Virus record (IMG/VR): IMGVR_UViG_3300031785_000071
Coordinates: 1-21,075 of that record
Source: a virus
Reading direction: 5' to 3' (one strand)
DNA length: 21,075 bases
The position numbers and the translations under genes are program-made. The first letter of the stretch is position 1. The number at the start of each line of letters is the position of its first letter. Of this stretch, positions 1,979 to 17,154 are shown in pieces. A model generated the notes under the pieces. That model worked only from the letters and a program-made list of their open reading frames with translations. It made no database searches and was not told the origin of the DNA.

Positions 1979-1986
1979 TATTTATA
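1979..1986 (-). promoter_or_regulatory. T4-type late promoter upstream of gp22
   Basis: The minus strand has an exact TATAAATA, the T4 late promoter -10 consensus, in the 62-base gap between the gp21 stop and the gp22 start. It is one of three exact matches in intergenic gaps in this window. Confidence 0.75.
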
Positions 1987-3173: not shown

Positions 3174-3181
3174 TATTTATA
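3174..3181 (-). promoter_or_regulatory. T4-type late promoter overlapping the gp20 stop codon
   Basis: The minus strand has an exact TATAAATA. The portal gene's TAA stop (3177-3179) lies inside the motif, so the end of gp20 and the promoter for the gp67-like gene share bases. The gp67-like ATG is 24 bases downstream. Confidence 0.72.
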
Positions 3182-12729: not shown

Positions 12730-14123
12730 TAAAATAGTCCAAATGGATTTGATTCAGTGAAATCGAGAATTTGATCTGCTTCATTCTCAATTTCATCACT
12801 ATGATCATATTTATCCTTATCTGTGTTTGCTGCAGATACTTTAACAGTGTATTGTGCACCAGATCTTGTTCCAGTTACAGTTTCACCTCTAAAGAATGTT
12901 CCAGTTTCAATACCAACCTGTAAAATCCCAGTATCAAGATCCCATCTCTTAACTCTTGCAGATGCATTAGATCTATTACCCGTTACAAGTTCATTGAACC
13001 AGTAACTTCCAGATCCTATACCAGCTGATGAAGGTGGACCAACAGTAATTGTTGGTGGTGAGAAGAATCCTGCACCAGCATCTTGGATAAAGATATTTGA
13101 TATGGTTCCACCAGCACCAACTTCCGCACGAGCAGAAGCAGGTAATTGTGGGGATAGAGATGGAAGTGAAATGGATACGTTTGGTGTTGTGGAATATCCA
13201 ACTCCACCTGTGCCTCCAATGGAGATACGTATGATACCTTTCTTACCATCTGATCTAATCAATGCAGTAGCAGCAGCACCTACACCTCCACCACCAGATA
13301 TTGTGACTATTGGTGCAACAGTATATCCAGCACCAGAATTAGTAATTACAATCTCTTCTATCGAGGTTACATTATTTCTTGTAGTAAGTATACCAACAGC
13401 AGTAGCATCTATTCCACCACTTGGTGCTGTGGTTAGTCCAATAGTTGGAACACTGGTGAATCCTGAACCATCATTTAGTAAACTTATACTCTTAACAAAT
13501 CCTGTTCCTATTGTTGCTGTAGCAGTTGCTGCAGATCCAACTCTGTTCATAGTAAGATCGGTTATAACACCCAAATCTTCTGTTTTACTATCAATTGCAT
13601 CAATACCAGTATCAATTGTTTCATCATTGTACTCGAACAATTCACACTGTAATTCATAAACATAAGTATTTCCTAACTGATAAAAAGGAACCTCATGCTC
13701 TACGAATTTTATTTCAAATAATCTACCACCTAGAGGAAAAAATACTAAATCACCTTCACGAGGTCTCATAACTGCTTCACCCACCTCATCTACATCTTCT
13801 TGACTTAAAAATGGAGAGATAAAATCTTCAAATCTTTCTCTTGAAATTACAAGTTGTAATTCATCTCTCAAACTCATTCCAAATTTAGTTAGAACATCAC
13901 CTGCTCCACTGTAACCATCCCATGTATTTACATATGCCTCAAGTTGAAAATTATCATCAAACTTTGATGCTTCAATTTCTTGAAATACAGTGCTTTTGTT
14001 AACAAATTTTCTAGGTATATAAGTTACTTCAACACCATAAATTTTCAATTGCTCATTTACAAGCGATTGAATTAAATCTTGTTCTTCAGGTGAACCTTGT
14101 AGAAAAAAGGGATTAAGAGCCAT
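12729..14123 (-). CDS. 14: Neck protein gp14, enlarged by repeat insertion
   Basis: This is a head-completion/neck protein that, with gp13, seals the filled head and docks the tail. Residues 1-170 are gp14-like (MALNPFFLQGSPEEQDLIQS, REGDLVFFPLGGRLFEIKFV, YVYELQCELFEYNDETIDTG) and the end (EADQILDFTESNPFGLF) is the usual gp14 C-terminus. Between them are about 250 extra residues; the whole is 464 aa against 256 in T4. The insertion holds four diverged repeats around GSGFTSVPT, GAGYTVAPIV, GVGYSTTPNV and GAGFFSPPT (about 212-372), then a VTGxxS-type segment (380-430). These resemble beta-rich modules of phage fibres. The gene is coupled to gp13 and gp15 by TAATG junctions at both ends. Confidence 0.93.
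   Translation of the reverse strand: MALNPFFLQGSPEEQDLIQSLVNEQLKIYGVEVTYIPRKFVNKSTVFQEIEASKFDDNFQLEAYVNTWDGYSGAGDVLTKFGMSLRDELQLVISRERFEDFISPFLSQEDVDEVGEAVMRPREGDLVFFPLGGRLFEIKFVEHEVPFYQLGNTYVYELQCELFEYNDETIDTGIDAIDSKTEDLGVITDLTMNRVGSAATATATIGTGFVKSISLLNDGSGFTSVPTIGLTTAPSGGIDATAVGILTTRNNVTSIEEIVITNSGAGYTVAPIVTISGGGGVGAAATALIRSDGKKGIIRISIGGTGGVGYSTTPNVSISLPSLSPQLPASARAEVGAGGTISNIFIQDAGAGFFSPPTITVGPPSSAGIGSGSYWFNELVTGNRSNASARVKRWDLDTGILQVGIETGTFFRGETVTGTRSGAQYTVKVSAANTDKDKYDHSDEIENEADQILDFTESNPFGLF
13008..13511 (-). repeat. Four G-x-G-[FY]-x3-P beta-repeats inside gp14
   Basis: Gp14 residues 205-372 contain four copies of a 33-45-residue unit. Each has a hydrophobic strand, then G(S/A/V)G(F/Y) followed by S/T/V-x-P, a short strand, a glycine-rich turn and usually an alanine-rich strand. 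The copies differ at the DNA level, so they are old duplications rather than a recent tandem array. Confidence 0.75.
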
Positions 14124-14968
14124 TATCCAATAAAATCAAGTGGTGGTAGTTCGTAAGTAGAACTCATTTCTTGTTTGATCATTTCAATTTCTCTCAGAGC
14201 ATCATCATATATCTGTCTACCATTCAATTCAATACCACCAGGTAGTTTAACACCTTGGAACTTAATTAAATTTTGACCCCATTGTCTCTTTATCAAAGCA
14301 GTTAGATATCTCTTTAAAAAACTATCATTAAACAATTGTGTGTAAGTTGTTGGATCTAATATTCTATGACAGTCAATTACTATGAAATCACCAGCATTTA
14401 AACTATTGTAATCAATATCCAAATATAATCTATCTTGTCTTTTATTAAATCTGATCTGTGCTTCAGTTGTTAAGAGAAAATCTATATCTTCTAGATATGA
14501 TTTTACCATAGCGTATTGTAATAATTCTACTGAATTGAAATAATATAAATCATTCAAAAATAATTGGTACTTAATACTAAACATACCACCAGATATTGCA
14601 CTCATATCAAATTTAAATATCTTTTCTATACCTACAACTGTTTCGGGTACTTGAATGAAGTTAGATGTTTCGTAGAAGTTTGATGTGGTTGTGCCATAAC
14701 CACTTATTGCAGTGGATGTGCCAGTGGTTGTTACAATTCCTACACCTGTTGTTCCCTGTGCCTTTCCTCTGTCTATATCCCCTTGTGTAAACTGATATTT
14801 AAGATACATTCTTTCAATACCGTCAAAATGACGTTCTTGGAAATACTGAAATGCATCATCTACTAGATCATCAACCTGTTCATCACTCACGTTGATTTCT
14901 AAGACTGGTGCACCTAATTGTCTTTTGCAATATTCAATTAATTCTTCTCGTGAAGCAGGTTTCGCCAT
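14123..14968 (-). CDS. 13: Neck protein gp13
   Basis: This is the head-completion protein that binds gp14 at the portal vertex. The 281-aa product (T4: 309 aa) has the N-terminal SREELIEYCKRQLGAPVLEI, then SDEQVDDLVDDAFQYFQERH (28-47) and IERMYLKYQFTQGDID, all typical of cyanophage gp13. A Gly/Thr/Ser-rich loop follows (about 72-95). The rest includes DFIVIDCHRILDP, LTALIKRQWGQNLIKFQGVK and a C-terminal MSSTYELPPLDFIG. The ATG overlaps the stop of the coiled-coil gene as TAATG (14966-14970), and its own stop overlaps the gp14 start in the same way. Confidence 0.95.
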   Translation of the reverse strand: MAKPASREELIEYCKRQLGAPVLEINVSDEQVDDLVDDAFQYFQERHFDGIERMYLKYQFTQGDIDRGKAQGTTGVGIVTTTGTSTAISGYGTTTSNFYETSNFIQVPETVVGIEKIFKFDMSAISGGMFSIKYQLFLNDLYYFNSVELLQYAMVKSYLEDIDFLLTTEAQIRFNKRQDRLYLDIDYNSLNAGDFIVIDCHRILDPTTYTQLFNDSFLKRYLTALIKRQWGQNLIKFQGVKLPGGIELNGRQIYDDALREIEMIKQEMSSTYELPPLDFIG

Positions 14969-15183
14969 TAGAAATCCTCAGAATCTATTGTTATATTTTT
15001 TGGTTTTTTCTTACCTTTCAGTTGAATCAATAAATTTTCCTGATCAGTTACCTTTGTGCTCAGTTGGTCAACAACATTATTTAAACCAAGTACTCTTGTT
15101 TCTAATGCTATTATTTGAGCAAGCATTTCGTGTGTCTTTTTCTGATAAACACCCAAAATCATCTTGTATTCGTTTTCATCCAT
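14968..15183 (-). CDS. Small coiled-coil protein upstream of gp13 (wac position)
   Basis: The 71-aa product has a long helix with heptad-like leucine, isoleucine and valine spacing (about residues 18-50: LAQIIALETRVLGLNNVVDQ and on), then a basic KGKKKPK patch and an acidic end. It is probably an oligomerising coiled coil. T4 carries wac (fibritin, a trimeric coiled-coil neck fibre) directly upstream of gene 13, so position suggests a neck-associated role. The sequence is too short to call it a fibritin. I choose the ATG at 15183; an upstream in-frame GTG at 15216 would lie inside the terminator hairpin. A late promoter is 37 bases upstream. Confidence 0.82.
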   Translation of the reverse strand: MDENEYKMILGVYQKKTHEMLAQIIALETRVLGLNNVVDQLSTKVTDQENLLIQLKGKKKPKNITIDSEDF

Positions 15184-15193
15184 GACAGAGTAT

Positions 15194-15217
15194 AAAAAAA
15201 GGTGGGATACACCCACC
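15194..15217 (-). terminator. Rho-independent terminator after the fibre gene
   Basis: The minus strand reads GGTGGG (15212-15217), loop TGTAT (15207-15211), CCCACC (15201-15206), then seven T (15194-15200). This is a perfect 6-bp, mostly G-C stem with a U-tract, a textbook intrinsic terminator. It lies 26 bases downstream of the 636-aa gene stop and is the only strong terminator seen in the window. Confidence 0.85.
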
Positions 15218-15219
15218 TA

Positions 15220-15227
15220 TATTTATA
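15220..15227 (-). promoter_or_regulatory. T4-type late promoter abutting the terminator hairpin
   Basis: The minus strand has an exact TATAAATA two bases before the terminator stem. With the usual T4 late spacing the transcript would start near 15214, inside the 5' arm of the hairpin, and would lead into the coiled-coil, gp13, gp14 operon. Confidence 0.75.
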
Positions 15228-15243
15228 AGTTATACTTTACTCG

Positions 15244-17154
15244 TTAGAATGAGCCACCATCGACGGTTATATTCTCTAACTGTCGTAATGAACCATCGTG
15301 ACTAATTACTGCTGATAATCCTGCAGCGTCTTTGATGAATACACCACCTGCTTCAATCGTAGCGTGTGTGGTATTAGTTAACACACTTGTGCTTTCTGAT
15401 ACATCTGCACCAAAAGCAATTCTACCTACAGAATCATCCCAGAAGACTGCTGCTTTCTTTGCAGAACCACTATAATAATGGAATATTAAACCAACGTCTA
15501 TGTTAGCATCTGATGATGGAGCGACTAATGATCCACCACTGTTAACAAGACCTACCTCAATTAAACTATCCTCAACCTTTAAGGTTTCAGTATTAATTAT
15601 TGATTGTGATCCTAATACTGTAAATGTACCATTAACTGTTAAGTTATCATCAACAGTAACTGTACCACCAGCAGAGTCGATTGTTAAACCACCACTTGAT
15701 GTATCAATTTCATTATCACCAGTAACACCGATTTGTATGTTACCACCAGTTAAGTCTGTAAATGTACCAGCAGCAGCAGAGTTACCACCAATAGTGGTTC
15801 CATCAATAGTACCACCGTTGATATCAGCAGTATCTGCTACTAATGAGTCAATCTGTGCAGTTCCATCAAGGAATAAATTATTCCACTCTAGTGTAGAAGA
15901 TCCTATATTTCTGTTACCATCTGAAGATGGAATTAGGTCACTACTGAATCTAGCGATTGCATTTATAGTATCACTTGTAGCATTACCTAAAGTTGTATTA
16001 CCCTCTACACTTATGGTTGACTTGAATGTTGCACTGTGTGGAGTATTGACTGCATTTGAATGAGTAATAATAGCATTACCCATCTTAGCATGAGCAGTGC
16101 ACTGATAATGTAAAACAGCAGGTGTAGTGTCTGAGATTGTAATCTCAGTATAAGTATTCTGAAAACTTACACCGTTTGTATAATTATATACCTTATCAAC
16201 ATCTAGGTAAAACTTTAATGGATGACTTCCTGTATTGTCATTCGTAAATCTGTAAGTTTTACCTGGAGTCAAGTGTAGTATTGGTGCTTCTACACCATCA
16301 ATCTTATATCCATTACTACTACCTGAACCATTATATCTGTGTGCTGCGGATTTTGCTGCAACTGATACAGTAAAGTTCTGTGTGGTAGCAGAATGTGGTG
16401 CTTGTAAATATGAAAATCCTTTTAACGATGTTGTAGTTGTAACACCAGAGTTATTAATTGCATCTGCTTCTAAAGTACCATCTAAGTATAAATGTCTCCA
16501 TTGCTGTGTGGCTGAACCTAAATCAAAAGTATCATCATCATCTGGAACAAGACTTGAAGCAAATTCACCACCAACTACAATGTCGTCAGTAACTGAGTCA
16601 CCAAGTCTTACAGTTCCACCACGGAATGTTACAATACCTATAAATTCTGACTCACCACCAACAAATAATCTATCTGTTACTGAAAGTGCTGCTCCAACAT
16701 GTACGCTCTTTTCAATACCAACACCACCTTCAACTATTAAAGCTCCTGTATCTTTGCTAGTTGAATCTGTTGTGTCTGATATTGTAATAGGACCTACAAG
16801 TGTACCACCTGTCATCCAACTTAAATTACCACTTCCATCATTCTGAAGAATACCATTAGTGGCGTTAGTAGCTGGAAGTGTATATGTTAAGTTACCACCT
16901 AATGTTGCAGGTGCCTTAAGTTCTATATAATTGTCGCCATTACTTGCACCTTCTACGACTCTTACCGCAGAACCAGCAGTGTTAGTTTCTCTTGTCCAGT
17001 ACCTATGTGATCCGAAAAATTTATTATTGCCTGAAGTCCCATCCAGACCAACATAAAAATCAAATTCATCAGTTACAAACGCTGGTTCACCTGCTTTTAG
17101 AGCGGGTAAACTGCTGTTGGCACCTCTTTTAAACTTTATTACAGGAGCAGCCAT
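15244..17154 (-). CDS. Fibre-like virion protein with embedded cupredoxin-like domain
   Basis: This 636-aa protein is probably a tail or neck fibre subunit. The N-terminus (IKFKRGANSSLPALKAGEPA, FVTDEFDFYVGLDGT) is a common fibre anchor in marine phages. Ser/Thr/Gly-rich beta-repeats follow. Residues 250-366 resemble a cupredoxin: AHRYNGSGSSNGYKIDG, LTPGKTYRFTND, then H311 in SHPLKFYLD, and C352, H355 and M358 in HYQCTAHAKMGN, the order of type-1 copper ligands. The segments 184-232 and 389-438 on either side are related copies. The end, VDGGSF, resembles that of the preceding 93-aa protein. A late-promoter-like motif is upstream and a strong terminator downstream, so it may be a single-gene late unit. 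Host specificity is not readable. Confidence 0.85.
   Translation of the reverse strand: MAAPVIKFKRGANSSLPALKAGEPAFVTDEFDFYVGLDGTSGNNKFFGSHRYWTRETNTAGSAVRVVEGASNGDNYIELKAPATLGGNLTYTLPATNATNGILQNDGSGNLSWMTGGTLVGPITISDTTDSTSKDTGALIVEGGVGIEKSVHVGAALSVTDRLFVGGESEFIGIVTFRGGTVRLGDSVTDDIVVGGEFASSLVPDDDDTFDLGSATQQWRHLYLDGTLEADAINNSGVTTTTSLKGFSYLQAPHSATTQNFTVSVAAKSAAHRYNGSGSSNGYKIDGVEAPILHLTPGKTYRFTNDNTGSHPLKFYLDVDKVYNYTNGVSFQNTYTEITISDTTPAVLHYQCTAHAKMGNAIITHSNAVNTPHSATFKSTISVEGNTTLGNATSDTINAIARFSSDLIPSSDGNRNIGSSTLEWNNLFLDGTAQIDSLVADTADINGGTIDGTTIGGNSAAAGTFTDLTGGNIQIGVTGDNEIDTSSGGLTIDSAGGTVTVDDNLTVNGTFTVLGSQSIINTETLKVEDSLIEVGLVNSGGSLVAPSSDANIDVGLIFHYYSGSAKKAAVFWDDSVGRIAFGADVSESTSVLTNTTHATIEAGGVFIKDAAGLSAVISHDGSLRQLENITVDGGSF
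16057..16407 (-). other. Cupredoxin-like domain (possible type-1 copper site)
   Basis: Encodes residues 250-366 of the fibre-like protein. Candidate ligands are H311, C352, H355 and M358. The C-x2-H-x2-M spacing is shorter than in plastocyanin (C-x2-H-x4-M). The fold match is from sequence pattern alone; copper binding is inferred. Confidence 0.6.

Follow-up and report, generated by a model that had tools for sequence, protein, structure and literature searches.

In phage T4, the late promoter of I-TevI is placed so that late transcripts cannot form the hairpin that hides the ribosome-binding site (PMC2988022). Similar layouts occur at I-TevII, I-TevIII, segB, and Aeh1 mobE, and comparable hairpins regulate soc and e (PMC2988022). 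T4-like phages keep intrinsic terminators between late genes as well, after gene 23 and between genes 35 and 36 (PMC1524935). The T4 late motif spans positions -13 to -6, which places +1 six bases past its end, and a CTAAATA motif has been described for phage Aeh1 (PMC1524935). In the open-licence literature, we came across no account of a terminator with a late promoter nested in it, although such an absence is weak evidence. The locus described here is probably of this kind: a gp55-type late promoter set against the 5′ arm of an intrinsic terminator, the two forming a stop-and-restart boundary between operons. I-TevI is its closest known precedent. As in the I-TevI family, a gp55-type motif lies beside the 5′ arm of a hairpin that RNA from upstream would contain in full and late RNA would not; there, however, the hairpin acts on translation by covering a ribosome-binding site, whereas the hairpin studied here has a conserved T-run instead. 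Like the T4-like late-gene terminators, it has a GC-rich hairpin and a T-run and marks a constant operon boundary in several genomes, but those have been described simply as terminators, and this unit has an overlapping late promoter upstream of its hairpin.

The DNA analyzed here, called the window throughout, is a viral record of 21,075 bases; it comes from a T4-like phage whose structural genes lie on the minus strand. The gp13 protein shares 75% identity with its counterpart in Prochlorococcus phage P-SSM2 and 76% with that of Synechococcus phage S-SRM01, and the source phage is T4-like and Kyanoviridae-related. A cyanobacterial host is not established, because no psbA-family match was found among 11 related fragments. 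Read along the minus strand, the unit consists of GTATAACT, TATAAATA, a single T, the hairpin AGGTGGG-TGTAT-CCCACCT, and TTTTTTATAC. The features of the window are the following:

15244..17154, minus strand: tail-fibre-like gene, the last of the upstream block (phrog_30742 tail fiber protein, E 8e-43)
15228..15233, minus strand: ATAACT, directly 5′ of TATAAATA, unusually conserved (column counts)
15220..15227, minus strand: T4-type late promoter motif TATAAATA, positions -13 to -6 (exact match)
15214, minus strand: predicted late start (+1) within the 5′ arm of the hairpin (T4 rule)
15200..15218, minus strand: putative terminator hairpin, 7 bp with a 5-nt loop (fold and covariation)
15194..15200, minus strand: T7 run of the putative intrinsic terminator (sequence)
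14968..15183, minus strand: 71-aa ORF downstream of the unit (shared position, alignable with P-SSM2 PSSM2_119)
14123..14968, minus strand: gp13 neck protein (head-tail adaptor Ad2), which starts the neck-packaging-tail block (phrog_211, E 9.7e-48)
3174..3181, minus strand: TATAAATA at the gp20/gp67-like boundary, without a hairpin, for comparison (motif scan)
1979..1986, minus strand: TATAAATA between gp21 and gp22, without a hairpin, for comparison (motif scan)

The first-pass annotation of this DNA had the coordinates and the adjacency of motif and hairpin right, but its 6-bp stem and two-base gap have to be revised: the outer A-U pair gives a stem of 7 bp, and the hairpin (15218-15200) begins one base past TATAAATA (15227-15220). 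The first T of the T-run (15200) is the pairing partner of the outer A of the stem. The start that it had placed six bases past the motif, at 15214, agrees with the T4 rule (PMC1524935) and is kept here as the predicted start. The full hairpin folds at -12.2 kcal/mol, with z = -3.1 relative to shuffled sequences. RNA begun at 15214 retains a weak hairpin, because a register-shifted GGGUG/CACCU helix still forms at -4.6 kcal/mol in the window fold, and given this residue, escape of the late-started RNA may be incomplete. The stem is GC-rich and directly followed by a U-run, in the window and in its relatives, and the motif is an exact match on the coding strand, 5′ of the gp13 block of late structural genes. 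The 71-aa ORF, queried with the window sequence, had no PHROG or Pfam match. Taken singly, neither motif is above chance in the window: TATAAATA occurs 3 times against 2.25 expected, and terminator-like sites 9 times against 9.1 expected. Relatives were therefore needed to decide.

We gathered relatives by protein similarity only, to gp13 or to the small ORF. This gave 135 loci with 77 distinct intergenic regions, one of them clipped by a contig end, which leaves 76 informative. A scan of viral contigs for the pattern itself, and therefore biased towards it, served as a lead only, and all counts come from the protein-selected loci. A late motif is present at the boundary between fibre gene and small ORF in 76/76 regions, as TATAAATA in 75 and as TCTAAATA in one (L416), the latter resembling the CTAAATA motif of phage Aeh1. 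A perfect hairpin follows 0 to 2 nt past the motif in 71 of the 76, with stems of 7 to 9 bp, loops of 3 to 6 nt, and at least 5 consecutive T after the stem in 68/71; the T-run is weak in some carriers (L384 and the CCCATTTTAG group). Loss of the stem/promoter spacing in relatives, which the first-pass annotation held would speak against its reading, was looked for and not seen: the gap is 0 nt in 8 of the 71 hairpin regions, 1 nt in 62, and 2 nt in 1. In one further region (L389), the hairpin is bulged. The terminator is dispensable in some lineages, because four distinct regions of the 76 (L388/L390, L397, L400, and L414) keep the promoter with no hairpin. The unit is kept at gp13 identities to the window as low as 55%, and the adjacent small ORF is merely ~33 to 47% identical to that of the window in other groups; the unit is therefore an island of conservation. 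Judging from these comparisons, the conserved adjacency of motif and hairpin excludes chance. Most of the carriers, which form a large group of T4-like phages, are uncultured.

Two side observations concern these sequences. A very divergent gp13 lineage on a long branch (L392, L398, and L413; 55 to 57% identical to the window) still has the nested unit. At the locus, the ATAACT columns are strongly biased (for example A 63/68, C 50/68, and T 64/68), with T in 66/68 a few bases further upstream, and ATAACT is absent beside other late motifs of the same genomes.

The register of the start is conserved together with the hairpin. As in the T4 translational switches, the predicted late start lies within the 5′ arm, in 71/71 regions, and the base at +1 is G or A in 70/71. 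Starting there strips 3 to 5 of the 7 to 9 pairs, and the mean folding energy goes from -13.0 kcal/mol for the full RNA to -4.4 for the truncated one across the 71 regions. The nested geometry and the truncation of the 5′ arm, first proposed from the window, thus hold throughout the hairpin-bearing relatives. Since +1 always falls in the arm and pairs are lost throughout, the difference between read-through and late RNA is a conserved predicted property.

We then considered whether the two arms change together. The covariation set comprised 40 distinct cores picked for a perfect hairpin, so that the pairing percentage, 96.8% of cells against 91.1% with the 3′ letters reshuffled, is partly built in. 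What is informative is that both sides change together and that reshuffled arms fail. Double-changed cells number 20, against 5.7 in shuffles, and 0/500 shuffles match the score. When the arms were re-paired among sequences, the true combination gave 59/59 against a mean of 46.3, matched in 0/5000 trials. Any slid register lowers pairing to 50 to 68%, and RNAalifold recovers the same helix unaided. Three sequences (L384, L405, and L416) were misregistered by the aligner and counted against the structure, which makes the estimate conservative; in their own registers, their pairing is perfect, as TGGATAGG/CCTATCCA, AAGGTGGGG/CTCCACCTT (one G-U), and GAGGGGT/ACCCCTC. On the gp13 tree, the pair at +1 changed at least 8 times and the stem-base pair at least 10 times; with a poorly resolved backbone and likely recombination, these counts and those of independent events are rough.

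In several of the compensated pairs, the 5′ partner precedes +1: the stem-base change from A-U to G-C, GGATAGG/CCTATCC, and GAGGGG/CCCCTC. Such pairs would be absent from late RNA, which leaves DNA or transcripts coming from upstream as the only levels at which they can be selected. Of the two, RNA is favoured by the variable loop and by the T-run on one side only; a loop that ranges from 3 to 6 nt while the arms hold speaks for an RNA hairpin and against a protein site. What is selected to fold would then be the full-length read-through RNA. We conclude from these comparisons that the arrangement exists, is conserved over deep divergence, and is maintained by selection.

The position of the unit is also constant. 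In related contigs, the order is TATAAATA, a gp8-like baseplate gene (Pfam Gp8), about 11 to 12 kb, the fibre gene, and the nested unit, followed by the small ORF and gp13-14-15-16-17-18-19-20. The unit thus divides two ~12-kb blocks, one running from gp8 to the fibre gene and the other from gp13 to gp20. The gp67-like gene and gp22 each have a separate TATAAATA site before them, and those related contigs that extend far enough have a terminator after gp23. In four related contigs (G001, G003, G004, and G006), the unit is the sole coding-strand terminator found between the gp8 promoter and gp23 or the end of the stretch; a fifth (G007) has one additional weak candidate in the same scan. No terminator was found adjacent to the other late motifs of the related contigs, and their strand counts follow the coding strand (for example 6/0, 7/0, and 0/4). 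This agrees with the earlier proposal that the unit separates the fibre gene from the neck and packaging operon. The same proposal had called it a stage-dependent switch, and this part is not supported: in related contigs, the upstream gp8-to-fibre block has its own TATAAATA at its head and looks late too. Both flanking blocks appear to consist of late genes, and because both are headed by late motifs, we prefer a relay at an operon boundary over a stage-dependent switch.

An alternative is that two independent elements are packed tightly and that their overlap only saves space. We consider this unlikely. The gap from the fibre stop to the small ORF is just ~60 bp, and the elements are separable, since DSL-LC02 has a hairpin before the small ORF and CATAAATA after it. 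Against it, the gap of 0 to 2 nt is kept across gp13 identities down to 55%, and the commoner order elsewhere in these genomes is the reverse, terminator first and late motif after. With the order seen here, a start upstream of the arm would also kill its own transcript, so that the register matters even if the overlap arose by packing. Some phages have no unit at this locus: P-SSM2 (L083), its near relatives L082 and L087, and L049 have a homologous small ORF after a short gap with neither element, and in S-SKS1 and S-SRM01 the preceding gene runs directly into gp13.

Cultured carriers were found via the small ORF; searching cultured phages with the unit by short-sequence blastn returned chance hits only. 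In Synechococcus phages S-B05, RN05-S, and RB11-B, the fibre stop is followed by AATAAATA abutting a hairpin, AGAGGGTA-GCAA-TACCCTCT, then a T-run and the ATG of a small-ORF homologue. They differ from the window in having A at -13 of the motif and, past the small ORF, another fibre/structural gene, not gp13. Phages of the S-B05 type (L445, L446, and L448) have the unit and small ORF at this different locus, before the fibre/structural gene, which suggests that small ORF and nested unit move together. A comparable geometry occurs at P-SSM2 purL/hsp20 and at S-PM2 117809, where NATAAATA stands 2 to 3 nt ahead of a terminator-like hairpin whose arm contains +1; these are other loci (that of P-SSM2 lies between purL and hsp20), and the likeness is one of geometry, not of established descent. 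Outside the lineage, ATAAATA falls within -2 to +4 of the arm at 6/293 terminators against 0.29 expected by frequency. Permuted AT motifs reach 0 to 4 of 293, and for this reason a general enrichment of the nested layout outside the lineage is only suggestive. A similar-looking P-SSM4 site after psbD was not counted, since truncation leaves its RNA with -10.8 kcal/mol and another TATAAATA lies past the terminator. At this site (NC_006884, 172837), the terminator directly follows psbD, with a late motif on each side. Also set aside, among the matches listed, were types at other loci (L088, L110, and L128) that have no clean T-run directly past the stem.

Slightly less likely again is translational control of the kind known for T4 I-TevI, e, and 49, in which the hairpin would hide the start of the small ORF, late RNA would free it, and termination would be incidental. 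T4 does use the late-promoter-in-hairpin layout for translation (PMC2988022), and our scan recovers e and 49. In the window, however, the 3′ arm contains no Shine-Dalgarno sequence, the sequestered ribosome-binding site that defines the T4 switches was not found in the unit, and the ATG of the small ORF lies ~17 nt beyond the stem with the T-run in between. Translational control needs no T-run, yet one is kept in 68/71. A different phage group (L090, L094, L125, L143, L167, and L195) has TATAAATA-TAGGGAGG-CGTAAAAA-CCTCCCTA some ten bases ahead of an ORF of 86 aa, again with +1 in the 5′ arm. This hairpin may be a translational version, because no T-run follows it. Among the matches listed, other phages (L110, L116, L149, and L174) have TATAAATA-TTGGTAGG...CCTACCAA hairpins without a T-run at another locus.

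An attenuator, with the true start upstream of the hairpin, most RNA stopping at ~25 nt, and gp13 depending on anti-termination, seems very improbable. The unexpected conservation of ATAACT upstream of the motif could point to an extra promoter element of this sort, but TATAAATA is invariant and the T4 start rule puts +1 within the arm. Even if TATAAA is read as a sigma-70 -10 element, the start would presumably fall at almost the same base. Least credible of all is that TATAAATA is a mere A-rich upstream flank of the terminator and no promoter: the flank can pair with the T-run in an extended fold of the window and AT-rich 7-mers do arise near terminators by chance, as the permuted motifs illustrate, but 8/8 positions are invariant bar the one TCTAAATA, even where the tail is unpaired (CTCTTTTTG and CATTTTAG), and regions without a perfect hairpin still have the motif.

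The reading we prefer is therefore the stop-and-restart boundary, and its mechanism would follow from well-established rules. Polymerase arriving from the gp8-to-fibre block would transcribe the whole hairpin and the U-run and stop. Polymerase initiating at TATAAATA would begin ~4 bases into the 5′ arm, so that the full terminator could not form, and its RNA would continue into the small ORF, gp13-17, and the tail and portal genes. Within ~34 bp, the neck and packaging genes would gain a late dosage of their own, independent of fibre transcription. Whether the unit stands for an undescribed class of control element, in which the start site disarms a terminator, we see as evenly balanced; such a class would comprise a late-operon relay kept as one unit in a broad T4-like lineage, with parallels at other loci of cultured cyanophages.

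If this reading is correct, the late operons of widespread aquatic T4-like phages would be insulated by a single sequence that combines a stop and a start, and the T4 device of starting inside a hairpin would extend from translation to transcription termination. The cultured Synechococcus phages S-B05, RN05-S, and RB11-B, which have a version of the unit, would make this directly testable. The arrangement would also provide a compact, self-insulating promoter design, and it would allow the carriers to set the dosage of fibre and of neck and packaging proteins separately in very little DNA.
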